DNA from: Alphaproteobacteria bacterium
GTDB lineage: Bacteria > Pseudomonadota > Alphaproteobacteria > Micropepsales > Micropepsaceae
Reading direction: 5' to 3'
Length of the DNA: 64,000 nt
Assembly (NCBI GenBank): GCA_017308375.1
Contig: JAFKEW010000043.1
Coordinates: 78,984 to 142,983, forward strand
Position numbers and translations under genes: made by a program. Each line of letters begins with the position of its first letter. Within the stretch, counting starts at the first letter, position 1. Below the pieces are notes generated by a model, which did not search any database, was not told the DNA's origin, and saw only the letters and a program-made list of their open reading frames with translations. Of this stretch, positions 42,884 to 47,545 are shown piece by piece.

Positions 42884-43520
42884 GGGCCAGCCCCCGGATT
42901 TCCAGGACCGTGGCCGCCGGATCGGTCAGGCTCTGGTGCTTTTGCAGGATCATTCTCCAAATCTTGTAGGCCGCGGTCAACTCACCCTCAACATTTTGAC
43001 CCTTGAGGAACAGATTCACGGTCCCCGCCCCCTGAGAGCGATGCGCGTAGGCCAGCAGCCGGTCGAGCGGCGCACAGGCCCGCGCCGTTACCACGTCGAA
43101 AGCCCGGCGCGGGGCATCTTCGATCCGGCCATTGCGAATGTCGACCGTCAGGCCGAGCTTTTCGGCGACTTCCCCCAGGAATCGGCATTTCTTGGCGGTG
43201 GATTCGTAAAGGCTGACCCGCAGCCGGTCGCGCGCCAGCCAGGCCAGCACCAGACCCGGAAACCCCGCCCCGCTGCCGAGATCGGCCAATGTTGTGGCCG
43301 AAGCCGGAATCAGGGGCAGAAGCTGAGCGCTGTCCAGTATATGGCGGTGCCAGACAGCGGCGAGCGACGCGGCTGAAACCAGATTGTGCTTCGCATTCCA
43401 GTCCCGCAGCAGGCCGACATAAGTCTCAAGCCCCGCCAATGTTTCACGTGAAACAGGGAAGGCGGCCTGAAACGCGGCCACATCGGGGACGGAATCCGCC
43501 ACGGCGTCAGGCGGCTTCAT
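42876..43520 (-). CDS. rsmG: 16S rRNA (guanine527-N7)-methyltransferase
   Basis: 214-residue RsmG/GidB: SAM motif [27 protein letters not shown] motif [22 protein letters not shown]. Its early codons [10 protein letters not shown] embed a perfect parS site. Start ATG 43520 overlaps the mnmG stop by 14 bp. Classic mnmG-rsmG-parA-parB order. Confidence 0.96.
43440..43455. other. parS centromere site inside rsmG
   Basis: TGTTTCACGTGAAACA, perfect 16-bp match to the parS palindrome; codes for Val-Ser-Arg-Glu-Thr in rsmG. Confidence 0.93.
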
Positions 43521-45420
43521 GCTTGCGGGCCCTGGTCCCATGCCGGGCGGTTCCCCGGACATGGGCCAGCACCACGGTCAGCGCGGCAGGCGTGACGCCA
43601 TCGATCCGCGCGGCCTGACCCAGAGTGGCGGGGCGGATGCGGGCCAGTTTCTGCGCCGCCTCGGTCGAAAGGCCGTGAACCGCGCGATAATCGAGGTCAG
43701 CGGGCAGATGCAGGCCTTCATCCCGGCGGAAGGCGGCGATATCAGCCTCCTGCCGGTCGAGATAGCCGGAATAGCGCGCATCGATCTCCAACTGCTCGAC
43801 AATCGGGGCGGAAAGCCCGCCCAGTTCGGGCCAGATTGCCTGCAGCATCGGCCATTCGACGCCGGGAAGGGCCAGAAGCTCGAACCCGTTGCGGCGGACA
43901 CCATCCAGCCGCACGGTCAGCCCCAGCTTCTGGGCCTGATTGGGGGTGAGGGTCAGCGCCTGCATCTCAGCCCGCGCGGCCTCCAGCGCCGCCATTTTGG
44001 CCGAAAACGCCCGTTTACGGGCGGAACCGACCAGCCCGGCCGCGATACCGAGCCCGGTCAGGCGTTGATCTGCGTTATCCGCCCGCAGGGTGAGGCGGTA
44101 TTCGGCGCGGGAGGTGAACATGCGATAGGGCTCGCTCACCCCCTTGGTCACCAGATCATCGATCAGCACGCCGATATAGGCCCGCGCCCGGTCGAGGATG
44201 ACAGGCCCTGTCCCGCCAGCGGCGCGCGCGGCGTTCAGCCCGGCCATCAGGCCTTGGGCCGCCGCCTCCTCATACCCCGTGGTGCCGTTGATCTGGCCCG
44301 CGAGATAGAGGCCGGGCAGTTTTTTGACCTCCAGCGCGGGCGAAAGCTCCCGCGGATCGACATAATCATACTCGATGGCGTAGCCGGGGCGGATCATCCG
44401 CGCCGTTTCGAGGCCCGGAATGGTCGCAATCAGCGCCAATTGCACATCTTCCGGCGTCGAGGTCGAGATTCCGTTGGGATAGATGGTGGGATCGTCCAGC
44501 CCCTCCGGCTCCAGAAAGATCTGGTGGCTCTCGCGCGCGGCGAAACGGACCACCTTGTCCTCGATCGAGGGGCAATAGCGCGGGCCGGTACTTTCGATCT
44601 GGCCGGAATACATCGGCGCCCGGTCGAGATTGGCGCGCAGGATCGCGTGCGTCTCCGCCGTGGTGCGGGTGATGTGGCAGACGGTCTGCGGCGTGGTGAT
44701 GCGGCTGTTGAGGAAAGAAAAGGGCACCGGCGGATCGTCGCCCGCCTGGGGGGCCAGCCGCTCCCACGCGATGGTGCGGCCGTCGAGCCGCGGCGGGGTG
44801 CCGGTTTTGAGCCGCCCCATGGTGAGGCCGAGGCCGTAAAGCGCCTGAGACAGGCCGACGGCGGCGGATTCGGTGCCGATTTCGCCATTGGCGGCGGGCG
44901 CCGCGGTCATGCGGCCGGCGGGAATCTTGCGCTCCCCGATATGGATCAGGCCGCGCAGAAAGGTGCCGGTGGTGAGAATGACGGCGCCGCTGCGGAATTC
45001 GCTTCCATCCGCCGTGGTCACACCGGCGGCGCGGCCGCCCTGCACCAGAAGGCCTTCCACCGCGGCGGCGCGGATGGTGAGGTTTTCGGTCTCGGCCAGT
45101 GCGGCCTGCATGGCGGCGCGGTAGAGCTTGCGGTCGGCCTGCGCCCGGGGGCCGCGCACCGCCGGGCCCTTGCGCCGGTTCAGCATGCGGAACTGGATGC
45201 CCGCCGCATCGGCGACGCGGCCCATCACGCCGTCCAGCGCATCGATCTCGCGCACCAGATGGCCCTTCCCCACCCCGCCAATGGCCGGATTGCAGGACAT
45301 TTCGCCGATGGTTTCGAGATTATGGGTCAGAAGCAGCGTTGCGGCGCCTGCGCGTGCGGCTGCCGCCGCAGCCTCACAGCCAGCGTGCCCACCCCCGATC
45401 ACGATCACGTCGTAGCGCAT
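43507..45420 (-). CDS. mnmG: tRNA uridine 5-carboxymethylaminomethyl modification enzyme, FAD subunit
   Basis: 637-residue MnmG/GidA. FAD-binding [17 protein letters not shown] at residue 9, [23 protein letters not shown], the redox/thiol regions, and the C-terminal MnmE-binding domain ([17 protein letters not shown]). Works with MnmE on U34 of tRNAs. Two parS sites lie upstream of it. Confidence 0.98.
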
Positions 45421-45499
45421 GGGCGCGGTGTTTAGGCTTCATAGGGGACACGATCAAGAAAAAGCCTGCCGGAACGGGATGTTTCAGGCGCGCGGGTGA

Positions 45500-45515
45500 T
45501 GTTTCACGTGAAACA
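45500..45515. other. parS centromere site
   Basis: Perfect TGTTTCACGTGAAACA, upstream of mnmG. Confidence 0.93.
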
Positions 45516-45537
45516 ACGGCTTGAGACTGGCGGTGTG

Positions 45538-45553
45538 TGTTTCACGTGAAACG
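45538..45553. other. parS centromere site (15/16 match)
   Basis: TGTTTCACGTGAAACG, one terminal mismatch, 38 bp from the previous site. Confidence 0.85.
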
Positions 45554-45705
45554 TCTTCCGCCACTCAAGCGGTCATAGACATATTTACCTATGTTTCGCG
45601 GCAGAAATACCACAAGCTCTACAGATAGGCACAACAACTGGCGTTTTGGGGGTTCGTAGCCCGGTATTGCTAGTTGCGAATCCCGTCACATGGGCACAAA
45701 AATAA

Positions 45706-45738
45706 TGTCGAGGTCGCCCTAAACAGGCGACCTCGACA
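45706..45738 (-). terminator. perfect 13-bp hairpin with T-rich flank on the minus strand
   Basis: TGTCGAGGTCGCC and GGCGACCTCGACA pair perfectly around a 7-nt loop. Read on the minus strand it is followed by TTATTTTTG, fitting an intrinsic terminator for leftward transcription from the mnmE side. Confidence 0.5.
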
Positions 45739-45752
45739 GATAAATACCACGT

Positions 45753-45849
45753 GGAGATGTGGCCGAGCCCGGTTGAAGGCAGCGGATTTCCAATCCGTAC
45801 AGGACGCTAGCCCCGTCCTGCGGGGGTTCAAATCCCCCCATCTCCGCCA
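45753..45849 (+). tRNA. class II (serine-type) tRNA with anticodon UCC
   Basis: Acceptor GGAGATG/CATCTCC, short D-stem GCC/GGC, long variable arm with stem AGGACG/CGTCCT, T-arm GGGGG/CCCCC around TTCAAAT, discriminator G73 and encoded CCA: all serine tRNA identity features. The anticodon stem GCGGA/TCCGT encloses loop TTTCCAA (45787-45793), so positions 34-36 (45789-45791) read UCC, a glycine-type anticodon. Normal tRNA-Ser(GGA) would have TTGGAAA, the exact reverse complement of this loop. Automated calls may label it Gly, Ser or pseudo. It may be a mistranslating or inactive tRNA. Confidence 0.85.
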
Positions 45850-45867
45850 CCAACATTACTTCAAACT

Positions 45868-45895
45868 AGGCCCCATACTGGGGCCTTTTTCTTTC
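45868..45895 (+). terminator. intrinsic terminator after the tRNA
   Basis: AGGCCCC, loop ATACT, GGGGCCT, then TTTTCTTTCT: a strong rho-independent terminator 18 bp after the tRNA CCA end. Confidence 0.85.
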
Positions 45896-45978
45896 TAACC
45901 GATTGACAGCAGCCAACGCGAGTAGAAAGTGATTCGTTATGAATGTACCTAATTGTTCAATTTTGTACAATATAACTC

Positions 45979-46233
45979 ATGGCACGACGTCGAACGAGCG
46001 GCTCCAGATCCAGACTAGGATCTGAACTTGAGGGGATACTTGCTGATTTCTGTGAAGCTCATCATGGCGCCAACGCCCATGAGATAACCAAGCGGGCTAT
46101 CAGAGAGTTTGTCTCTCACGATTTGGAGAACAATCCGGGCATTCGCAAAGAATTTGAGCGGCTGCAAAAACTGCGCCTCCGCGAACCAAACTTGAAAGTA
46201 GTGGCTTTGGATAGAGACGAAGGCAAAAACTAG
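45979..46233 (+). CDS. small hypothetical basic protein
   Basis: 84 residues, not recognised. Very basic start (ARRRTSGSRSRLGSE), then two predicted helices (LEGILADFCEAHHG and AHEITKRAIREFVSHDLENN) and a charged tail. Size and pattern could suit a small DNA-binding or antitoxin-like protein, but no partner is adjacent. The 45940-45978 stretch ahead is AT-rich and contains the palindrome TTGTACAA next to TATAAC, a plausible promoter/operator. It converges with mnmE, 4 bp apart. Base composition is lower in GC than its neighbours. Confidence 0.55.
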   Translation: MARRRTSGSRSRLGSELEGILADFCEAHHGANAHEITKRAIREFVSHDLENNPGIRKEFERLQKLRLREPNLKVVALDRDEGKN

Positions 46234-46237
46234 GCGG

Positions 46238-47545
46238 CTACTTCCCAATACAGAAGTCGCGGAAGATGACGTCGAGCAGGTCTTCGACATCGACGCGGCC
46301 GGTGATACGGCCGATGGCACGGGTGGCGAGGCGGATGTCTTCGGCCATCAGCTCGGCCTCCGGCGCCTGACATGCGCGAGCCAAGGCTTCAGCCGCCTCC
46401 TCCAGCGCGCGGCGATGGCGGGCGCGGGTAATCAGCGGGGCCTCGCCCGGCCGCTCCAGCGTTCGGGCCACCAACCGGGTCAGCCAGGCCAGCAGGGCCT
46501 CCACCCCCGCCCCGGTTTTGAGCGAAAGGTGCAGGCCGTCCCGCGCCGCGGGCCACGGCAGATCGGTCTTGTTCCAGACGATGAGGTCCGGCTTCAGGTC
46601 GCCCAGTTCGGGCTGATCGCTGCTGGCGCCGTCCAGCAGTAGCAGCACCAGATCGCTTTCGGCGGCGCGGGCACGGGCACGGCGCACCCCTTCCCGCTCG
46701 ATGGCATCGCCGGATTCGCGCAAGCCCGCCGTGTCCGAGATGGTGACGAGATAGCCGCCAAGGTCGAGCCGGATGTCGATCACATCGCGGGTGGTGCCCG
46801 GAATATCAGACACGATGGCGACGCTGCGTTTCGCCAAGGCATTGATAAGAGAGCTTTTTCCAGCATTCGGTGGACCGATCACCGTTAAGTGAACACCGTC
46901 GCGGATCAGCTCCCCCCGCCCCGCATCATTCAGATAGGCAGCGATTTCGGCCTGGATAGCGGTAAGGTTTTCGCGGGCGCGTGTCTCCACATCCTCCGGC
47001 AGTTCCTCCTCCGCGAAATCAATTGCGGCTTCGGCCAGCGCGCCGGCCGCGATCAGCCGGGTGCGCCAGTCTTCATAGAGCGCCTCCGCCACGCCGCCAT
47101 ATTGGCGCAAGGCCTGCCTGCGCTGGCTTTCGGTTTCGGCATCGATCAGATCGGCCAGCGCTTCCGCCCGGGTCAGGTCCAACTTACCGTTCTCAACCGC
47201 GCGGCGGGTGAACTCCCCCGCCTCGGCGGTGCGCAAACCGGGCACGGCGCCGAGCGCCGCCATCAAACCTTCGGCGATGGCGCGGCCGCCATGGGCATGA
47301 AATTCGGCACAATCCTCGCCGGTGAAACTGGCCGGTCCCGGAAACCAGAGCAGAAGACCATGATCGATCGCGCGGCCCTTGCCATCCACAAAGGCGCGCA
47401 AGGCGGCGCGGCGTGGGTGGGGCGGCCCCTGCCCCGTCAGCGCGCGTACCGCCGCCCCAGCCTGCGGCCCCGAAACGCGGAACAGCGCCACGCCGGCGCG
47501 GCCCGGCGCGCTGGACAGCGCGAAAATCGTATCGTCCCGCATCAT
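46238..47545 (-). CDS. mnmE: tRNA modification GTPase
   Basis: 435-residue MnmE/TrmE. N-terminal tetrahydrofolate-binding domain (DTIFALSSAPGRAGVALFRV), helical domain, inserted G domain (GPPNAGKSSLINAL, DIPGTTRD, DTAGLRESGD, NKTD), and the invariant C-terminal CIGK. Partner of MnmG. Start ATG 47545, or 47542 as the second Met. Confidence 0.98.
   Translation of the reverse strand: MMRDDTIFALSSAPGRAGVALFRVSGPQAGAAVRALTGQGPPHPRRAALRAFVDGKGRAIDHGLLLWFPGPASFTGEDCAEFHAHGGRAIAEGLMAALGAVPGLRTAEAGEFTRRAVENGKLDLTRAEALADLIDAETESQRRQALRQYGGVAEALYEDWRTRLIAAGALAEAAIDFAEEELPEDVETRARENLTAIQAEIAAYLNDAGRGELIRDGVHLTVIGPPNAGKSSLINALAKRSVAIVSDIPGTTRDVIDIRLDLGGYLVTISDTAGLRESGDAIEREGVRRARARAAESDLVLLLLDGASSDQPELGDLKPDLIVWNKTDLPWPAARDGLHLSLKTGAGVEALLAWLTRLVARTLERPGEAPLITRARHRRALEEAAEALARACQAPEAELMAEDIRLATRAIGRITGRVDVEDLLDVIFRDFCIGK

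Follow-up and report, generated by a model that had tools for sequence, protein, structure and literature searches.

Between two genes which we take to be mnmG, from its sequence and gene order, and mnmE, the window (the whole stretch of DNA that was analysed, 64,000 nt) carries a segment of ∼0.68 kb that contains, in order, a hairpin, a class II tRNA gene, a terminator-like hairpin and a small open reading frame, orf84 (Table 1). The distance between mnmE and mnmG in this genome (G000) is 817 bp, compared with about 60–150 bp, including a site which we take to be parS-like, in 11 of the 16 relatives whose gap was compared. These 16 belong to a set of 29 relatives from which mnmG loci were fetched, two of which (L094 and L100) have almost no upstream sequence. 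The other five of the 16 hold different sequence in a gap of about 670–880 bp (L091, L092, L093, L096 and L101), and the one tRNA that ARAGORN found in the 29 mnmG loci, located 5′ of mnmG in G030 (L081, where no mnmE was seen), is an ordinary tRNA-Thr(CGU). Because of these five relatives and this tRNA-Thr, we regard the spot as variable. The hairpin upstream of the window tRNA obtained the highest upstream-hairpin score among the 46 G000 tRNA genes scored, with a fold z of −9.0; it is terminator-like on the minus strand and therefore may simply stop transcripts running in the mnmE direction.

Table 1. Features of the mnmE–mnmG interval (positions in the window)
Feature	Position	Strand	Evidence
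mnmG (presumed name), flanking gene	43507..45420	-	sequence and gene order
Two GTTTCACGTGAAAC sites, presumably parS-like, resembling those in relatives' short gap	45501..45552		sequence
Inserted segment (approximate), between mnmE and parS-like sites	45560..46235	+	gap comparison with relatives
Hairpin with a perfect 13-bp stem, 14 nt upstream of the tRNA	45706..45738		hairpin scoring, fold
Class II tRNA gene, serine-type body, anticodon UCC, CCA encoded	45753..45849	+	ARAGORN, Rfam, fold, masked comparison
Anticodon arm GCGGA-TTTCCAA-TCCGT, anticodon TCC at 45789-45791	45782..45798	+	ARAGORN, sequence
Long variable arm, 7-bp stem, 7-nt loop	45800..45820	+	fold
Intrinsic-terminator-like hairpin AGGCCCC-ATACT-GGGGCCT with T tract	45868..45886	+	terminator scan, fold
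TTGTACAA palindrome just 5′ of orf84, possible operator	45963..45970		sequence
orf84, conserved 84-aa protein, possibly ribbon-helix-helix	45979..46233	+	homologues, model
mnmE (presumed name), flanking gene	46238..47545	-	sequence

The tRNA gene is 97 nt long and intact, with acceptor and T arms of the ordinary 7/5 type by alignment and fold. The acceptor stem GGAGATG/CATCTCC is followed by G73 and CCA, the D stem has 3 bp, the T stem is GGGGG/CCCCC and the anticodon loop is UUUCCAA; no stem contains a mismatch, and the conserved loop bases are intact. It scores 60.2 bits against Rfam RF00005 (E 1.6e-10) and folds at −43.6 kcal/mol (z −3.3). ARAGORN labels 45753-45849 (+) as tRNA-Gly, placing the anticodon, tcc, at position 37. 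When the anticodon is masked and the tRNA is compared with the others of its genome, the four highest scores all go to serine tRNAs (GCU 43, CGA 37, GGA 35.5 and UGA 33), the best non-serine match being Gln at 21.5. It has the long variable arm, the G73 and the GG...CC acceptor end of a tRNA-Ser, and the four serine tRNAs of G000 likewise start with GGA and carry G73; of the serine features, the anticodon is the one that is absent. The GCGGG acceptor and U73 of the genome's other glycine tRNAs are absent as well. The earlier note had described a serine body with a UCC anticodon, and ARAGORN, Rfam, the fold and the masked comparison with the genome's own serine tRNAs bear this out, down to the short D stem, the long variable arm and G73. 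Judged by sequence, the window tRNA thus has a serine-type body and a glycine-type anticodon. SerRS is described as relying on the variable arm and G73 while ignoring the anticodon (PMC7609411).

How the UCC loop arose was attributed in the earlier note to a local inversion or template switch in a tRNA-Ser(GGA) gene. The reverse complement of the loop does give the normal Ser(GGA) loop, and a hairpin could flip, but the fit carries little weight in that any sequence has such a reverse complement, and the palindromic anticodon stem carries little as an aid to flipping, every stem being an inverted repeat. Since 4 of the 58 non-serine anticodons (AGC, UCA, UCC and UCG) have a G000 serine anticodon as reverse complement, a fit of this kind is expected by coincidence at ∼7%. 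Moreover, Ser(GCU) is the best match of the masked body and Ser(GGA) ranks third, neither a serine nor a glycine tRNA was found by ARAGORN in the 29 mnmG loci of relatives, and among the four sister serine-body tRNAs described below (CCU, CCU, UCU and UAU) the reverse complement is a serine anticodon for UCU (AGA) only. We therefore regard inversion as highly improbable, the least probable of the explanations considered. A normal tRNA-Ser(GGA), which the earlier note had suggested looking for, is present elsewhere in the genome. In L037:540-800 (-), the 5′ part of this ordinary gene (GGACAGGTGGCCGAGTGGCTGAAGGCGC...) is repeated in tandem ahead of it as a truncated tRNA.

G000 comprises 3.58 Mb in 69 contigs, is 98.9% complete and has 47 RF00005 matches. 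Among the fetched loci, ARAGORN identified ordinary serine tRNAs for GGA, UGA, CGA and GCU and glycine tRNAs for GCC (two genes) and CCC, and found no ordinary Gly(UCC), Tyr(GUA), Ala(UGC) or Ile(GAU). The anticodon and this missing Gly(UCC) would suit a true glycine tRNA that has an unusual body and supplies GGA decoding, and class II tRNA-Gly(UCC) with glycine acceptors does occur in two viral contigs (L071 and L136). Against this, GCGGG and U73 are found in all three glycine genes of the genome and in the viral class II genes, whereas the window tRNA has GGAGATG and G73. The missing gene is also more likely an assembly gap. A pattern for ordinary Gly(UCC) matches in 56 of the 69 genomes sampled from the genus and nowhere in G000, and in 8 of 8 loci checked this gene adjoins tRNA-Tyr, with tRNA-Trp also present in three of them. 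The tRNA-Trp gene of G000 is found at base 786 of contig C6, and this contig opens with coding sequence for the end of what we take to be EF-Tu (tuf). Since tRNA-Tyr is missing from G000 as well, and the contig with tRNA-Trp starts inside tuf, the Tyr–Gly(UCC) pair was most likely lost to a break in the assembly beside tuf, and for this reason the window tRNA need not be the sole reader of GGA. A genuine glycine tRNA is therefore an improbable reading.

Reassignment of GGA was likewise considered and rejected. GGA is still used at conserved glycines, namely at mnmG 317 (Gly in all 29 relatives aligned), mnmG 139 (Gly in 25 of 29, Ser in 3) and mnmE 229 (Gly in 21 of 21), so the codon is read as glycine. 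It also occurs at variable sites, such as mnmG 623 (Gly in 8 and Ser in 5 of 21) and mnmE 70 (Gly in 9 and Ala in 8 of 17).

The genus sample consisted of 69 genomes of what we take to be Rhizomicrobium. Three patterns (serine-type D arm, Y32, U33, R37, GTTC) together cover the non-serine anticodons in these genomes, and some cases could be missed, as the D arm was defined more strictly in the third pattern and in the class scans. The first pattern returned 21 rows in 17 of the 69 genomes, with a tRNA recognized by ARAGORN at the G000 locus only; the G029 gene, a class II serine-like CCU tRNA, was first met through a BLAST search. Altogether, serine-body tRNAs with non-serine anticodons are present in five of the 69 genomes: G000 (UCC), G029 (CCU), G043 (CCU), G035 (UCU) and G054 (UAU). 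The best masked matches of the latter four are the serine tRNAs of G000, and across the five separate loci the long variable arm is kept in all and G73 in four. Rfam scores range from 47.0 to 57.9 bits for the G029, G043 and G035 genes. Two points are counted on the negative side: the G043 gene carries a mispair in the acceptor stem (A2/C71) and, at 47 bits, scores lowest in Rfam, and the G054 gene, which has A73, was missed by ARAGORN. The variable arm of the G054 gene is of unusual length, and its Rfam score is 54.3 bits. Each of the four has an upstream hairpin and, by eye, a terminator-like hairpin downstream. The upstream hairpins of these four score 26, 25, 20 and 17.5, against 10–28 for ordinary G000 tRNA genes, and are thus no stronger than those of ordinary genes; their folds reach z −3.5 in G029 and z −2.95 in G035, where 4 of 200 shuffles were as good. 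Genes of this type are easily overlooked, because ARAGORN names a tRNA by its anticodon and files them as tRNA-Gly, tRNA-Arg or tRNA-Gln.

These sister genes also bear on whether the window tRNA is a dead gene or an artefact of assembly at a hairpin, both of which the earlier note had offered as alternatives. The genome is a draft, which leaves room for such an error. However, the gene is not decayed and has no stem mismatch, orf84 beside it has relatives in protein databases, and analogous genes occur in other assemblies, one of which (G054) is a single contig; we consider a dead gene or artefact very improbable.

The gene downstream of the window tRNA is itself rare. A search of 5.8 billion proteins gave seven relatives of orf84, one at 99% (P0001, for which no source is given); six of the seven come from contigs shorter than 3 kb. 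Among 388 genomes, orf84 was found in 4 (G000, G003, G010 and G035). In G003, the orf84 homologue lies 121 nt downstream of a 76-nt mismatched tRNA with anticodon CUG and G73 (L187:6882-6957 (-)), whose masked body is nearest to Arg(UCU), at 29, and then Asp, at 27. This tRNA scores 45.9 bits in a permissive Rfam search, the fast filters at the gathering setting having dropped it, and its terminator and spacer align with those of the window. G010 has a similar spacer and an orf84 homologue with no tRNA detected beside it, and the orf84 copy of G035 (C43) lies on a different contig from that genome's UCU tRNA, again with none detected beside it; an association in two of four orf84 loci is counted against the explanation proposed below. 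The same order recurs in G054, where a 65-aa CopG-like protein, identical to a listed CopG family protein of Rhizomicrobium palustre and giving no alignment with orf84, is encoded 122 nt downstream of the UAU tRNA. The tRNA-to-gene gaps are 129 nt (G000), 121 nt (G003) and 122 nt (G054), and AGTGATTCG occurs, in one orientation or the other, in all three spacers. None of 5000 mononucleotide shuffles gave any 9-mer shared among the three, the motif having been picked after looking.

No Pfam family scored over the cut-off in orf84. Its structural model (pLDDT 74.5, pTM 0.41) is built of three helices and lacks strands, and the best PDB matches, all non-significant, are chains of the antitoxin–toxin complexes ParD2:ParE2 (E 2.9) and PrpA:PrpT (E 4.1); from this model, orf84 may possibly be a ribbon-helix-helix protein. 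TGTACA palindromes lie 5′ of orf84 in three of the four loci, G003 being the exception. The spacers also hold GANTC, presumably a CcrM-type site, once in the window (45850-45978), twice in G003, three times in G054, four times in G010 and not at all in G035:C43, relative to a window background of 0.23 per 125 nt; methylation-linked control is possible.

Different genes accompany the tRNAs of G029 and G043. Both adjoin HTH-like genes that are 54% identical and divergently transcribed, followed in G029 (L167:8526-9965) by a PBECR3 nuclease-like gene (PF18812, 5.6e-8) and in G043 (L173), with the same layout, by a DUF3800 gene in its place, and both have an IS1595-type transposase on the other side. 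The G029-type HTH gene is found in 3 of the 69 genus genomes, the third and more distant being G050 (L189:3837-7749), where no tRNA was found beside it and where it lies next to what appears by eye to be an mnmE-like gene and an IS1595-type transposase. The site is the one that holds the insert in the window, and it may be an insertion hot spot. An IS1595-type transposase also lies near the G003 segment; no transposase is present within the window's insert, and no convincing terminal repeats were found around the IS1595-linked loci. With these IS1595-type neighbours at related loci, the cassette is probably mobile. A 336-aa gene beside the G035 tRNA was considered as a relative of the G029 HTH gene and rejected as unrelated, and Pfam detected no synthetase family among 20 proteins of this and related loci.

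Since the linked genes are regulator- and nuclease-like (orf84, the G029 HTH-like gene with PBECR3, the G043 HTH homologue with DUF3800), the product could be a tRNA-shaped RNA that acts outside translation, as a decoy, a regulatory RNA or a toxin–antitoxin or defence RNA whose anticodon serves as bait for an RNase or an mRNA. Such a role would not readily account for the intact stems and conserved loop bases of the window tRNA, the encoded CCA, or the retention of the long variable arm at all five separate loci and of G73 at four, and we regard it as possible though rather unlikely.

Two patterns for a serine D arm with a UCC loop gave 0 and 9 matches in genome contigs, none a tRNA by ARAGORN, and the same combination in 101 genomes gave 9 matches in 8, of which all 8 besides that of G000 were without a tRNA. 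In viral contigs it gave four matches, namely two tRNA-Gly genes whose acceptors are of the glycine type (L070 and L071), an irregular tRNA (L073) and one sequence that is not a tRNA (L072). A second viral pattern also gave four, with L071 and L136 being tRNA-Gly and L134 and L135 not tRNAs. The L071 (10377-10464) and L136 (262-351) genes encode class II tRNA-Gly(UCC) in which the acceptor is a true glycine one and the variable arm is long. Another viral contig holds a tRNA-Ser(CGA) (L133:4110-4202 (-)) whose D arm, TGGCCGAGCCCGGTTGAAGGC, is identical to that of the window tRNA. In the class scan, the first pattern matched in 97 of 385 genomes; apart from G000, inspection by eye showed tRNA-Tyr(GUA) in every row but those of G127, G345 and G179, which do not read as tRNAs; ARAGORN called Tyr in 11 of the 11 Tyr-type loci submitted, out of 29 returned. 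That these rows read as tRNA-Tyr(GUA) indicates that the pattern works. The corresponding scan for HCU anticodons gave no case in the 385 genomes, and viral contigs yielded neither CCU on a serine D arm, nor the D arm of the sister tRNAs, nor the terminator–spacer motif, nor any confirmed relative of orf84 or the HTH gene. BLAST of 45700-45900 against phages and plasmids gave no match, and neither the G054 gene in plasmids and phages nor the HTH gene and orf84 in plasmids could be found. The G029 CCU tRNA matched five phage and plasmid records by BLAST, of which H1, H2 and H4 are tRNA-Ser(UGA) and H3, annotated tRNA-Ser, is a second record of the H2 phage.

We propose, with a probability of roughly 0.55, that a serine-body UCC tRNA has been brought in on an inserted, probably mobile segment and that, predicted to be charged with serine, it competes at GGA and causes low-level mistranslation. 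Directly seen are that the tRNA is intact and of serine body type, that additional DNA separates mnmE from mnmG, that G003 holds a homologous terminator–orf84 segment beside another mismatched tRNA, and that four sister serine-body tRNAs with non-serine anticodons exist in the genus. Mechanistically, SerRS would charge the window tRNA with serine, and the charged tRNA would then compete with ordinary glycine tRNA at GGA, leading to an occasional Gly-to-Ser substitution; the earlier note's expectation of serine at GGA upon expression is, as a prediction, supported by the serine-type body. The segment of hairpin, tRNA, terminator and orf84 would accordingly serve low-level mistranslation, not codon reassignment, as an accessory and probably mobile module in which the orf84 protein may repress its own promoter through the TGTACA palindromes and perhaps also the tRNA. 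Within the 13 window open reading frames taken as genes, GGA makes up 16 of 453 glycine codons, and the frequencies per thousand codons are 3.1 for GGA, 1.0 for AGG, 0.6 for AGA, 0.6 for AUA and 27 for CAG. Because GGA is rare here, the mistranslation load would be small. Five of the six mismatched tRNAs read infrequent codons of this kind, which is counted in favour of mistranslation. Several observations are counted against it: the codon of the G003 tRNA, CAG, is common, no sigma-70-like promoter was found in 45421-46237, no synthetase gene adjoins the tRNA, and the window hairpin can serve as a terminator on the opposite strand, the upstream hairpins of the other four being of ordinary strength.

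A bolder version of the same idea is a mobile tRNA–toxin cassette, in which the mis-decoding tRNA would be toxic or would diversify the phenotype, the small DNA-binding neighbour would serve as repressor or antitoxin, and tRNAs would be exchanged such that species differ in which, mostly rare, codons they mistranslate. This we put forward tentatively and judge unlikely.

Few cases of encoded mistranslation in bacteria are described in the literature searched, and among the open-licence matches listed, judged by titles and the starts of abstracts, a cassette of a mismatched tRNA with a DNA-binding gene is undescribed. If the reading is true, a conserved frame with varied mismatched tRNAs and a regulator would make mis-decoding tRNAs spreading, controlled accessory genes, and selection for low-level missense decoding would become directly testable.

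Several known systems resemble the window tRNA in part. The viral class II tRNA-Gly(UCC) of L071 and L136 share with it the UCC anticodon and the long variable arm, but have the acceptor GCGGG and U73. The Candida CUG Ser/Leu tRNA (PMC10365949) is alike in being a genetically encoded ambiguity that involves serine; it is, however, a fungal tRNA for CUG that is charged with either of two amino acids, whereas the window tRNA is an extra bacterial gene in a genome where GGA still stands at conserved glycines. Closer is tRNA-ProX, which occurs with ProRSx in Streptomyces and Kitasatospora and is reported to mistranslate in E. coli (PMC10365949, PMC11415595). There too, the body of one amino acid is combined with the anticodon of another, and several anticodons occur per backbone. 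According to the same accounts, tRNA-ProX has a proline body, A33, A34 and a dedicated synthetase beside it; the window tRNA has a serine body, U33 and U34 and no adjacent synthetase, its neighbours being mnmG, orf84 and mnmE. The allo-tRNAs (Mukai et al. 2017), as described in PMC7609411, are serine-type tRNAs with a long variable arm and mostly non-serine anticodons, spanning 35 of 64 codons with UAU among the commonest. They are found in Clostridia, Proteobacteria and Acidobacteria, and one allo-tRNA pseudogene overlaps a transposon-related open reading frame. The likeness, a serine-type body with a non-serine anticodon, holds here at the level of sequence. The defining trait of allo-tRNAs is an 8/4 or 9/3 arrangement of acceptor and T arms (PMC7609411), in contrast to the 7/5 arms of the window tRNA, and the linkage seen here of a small DNA-binding-type gene to a swapped tRNA payload does not feature in the allo-tRNA account, as far as the available text of PMC7609411 goes. 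The window tRNA would work like allo-tRNAs and tRNA-ProX, yet lacks a defining feature of each.
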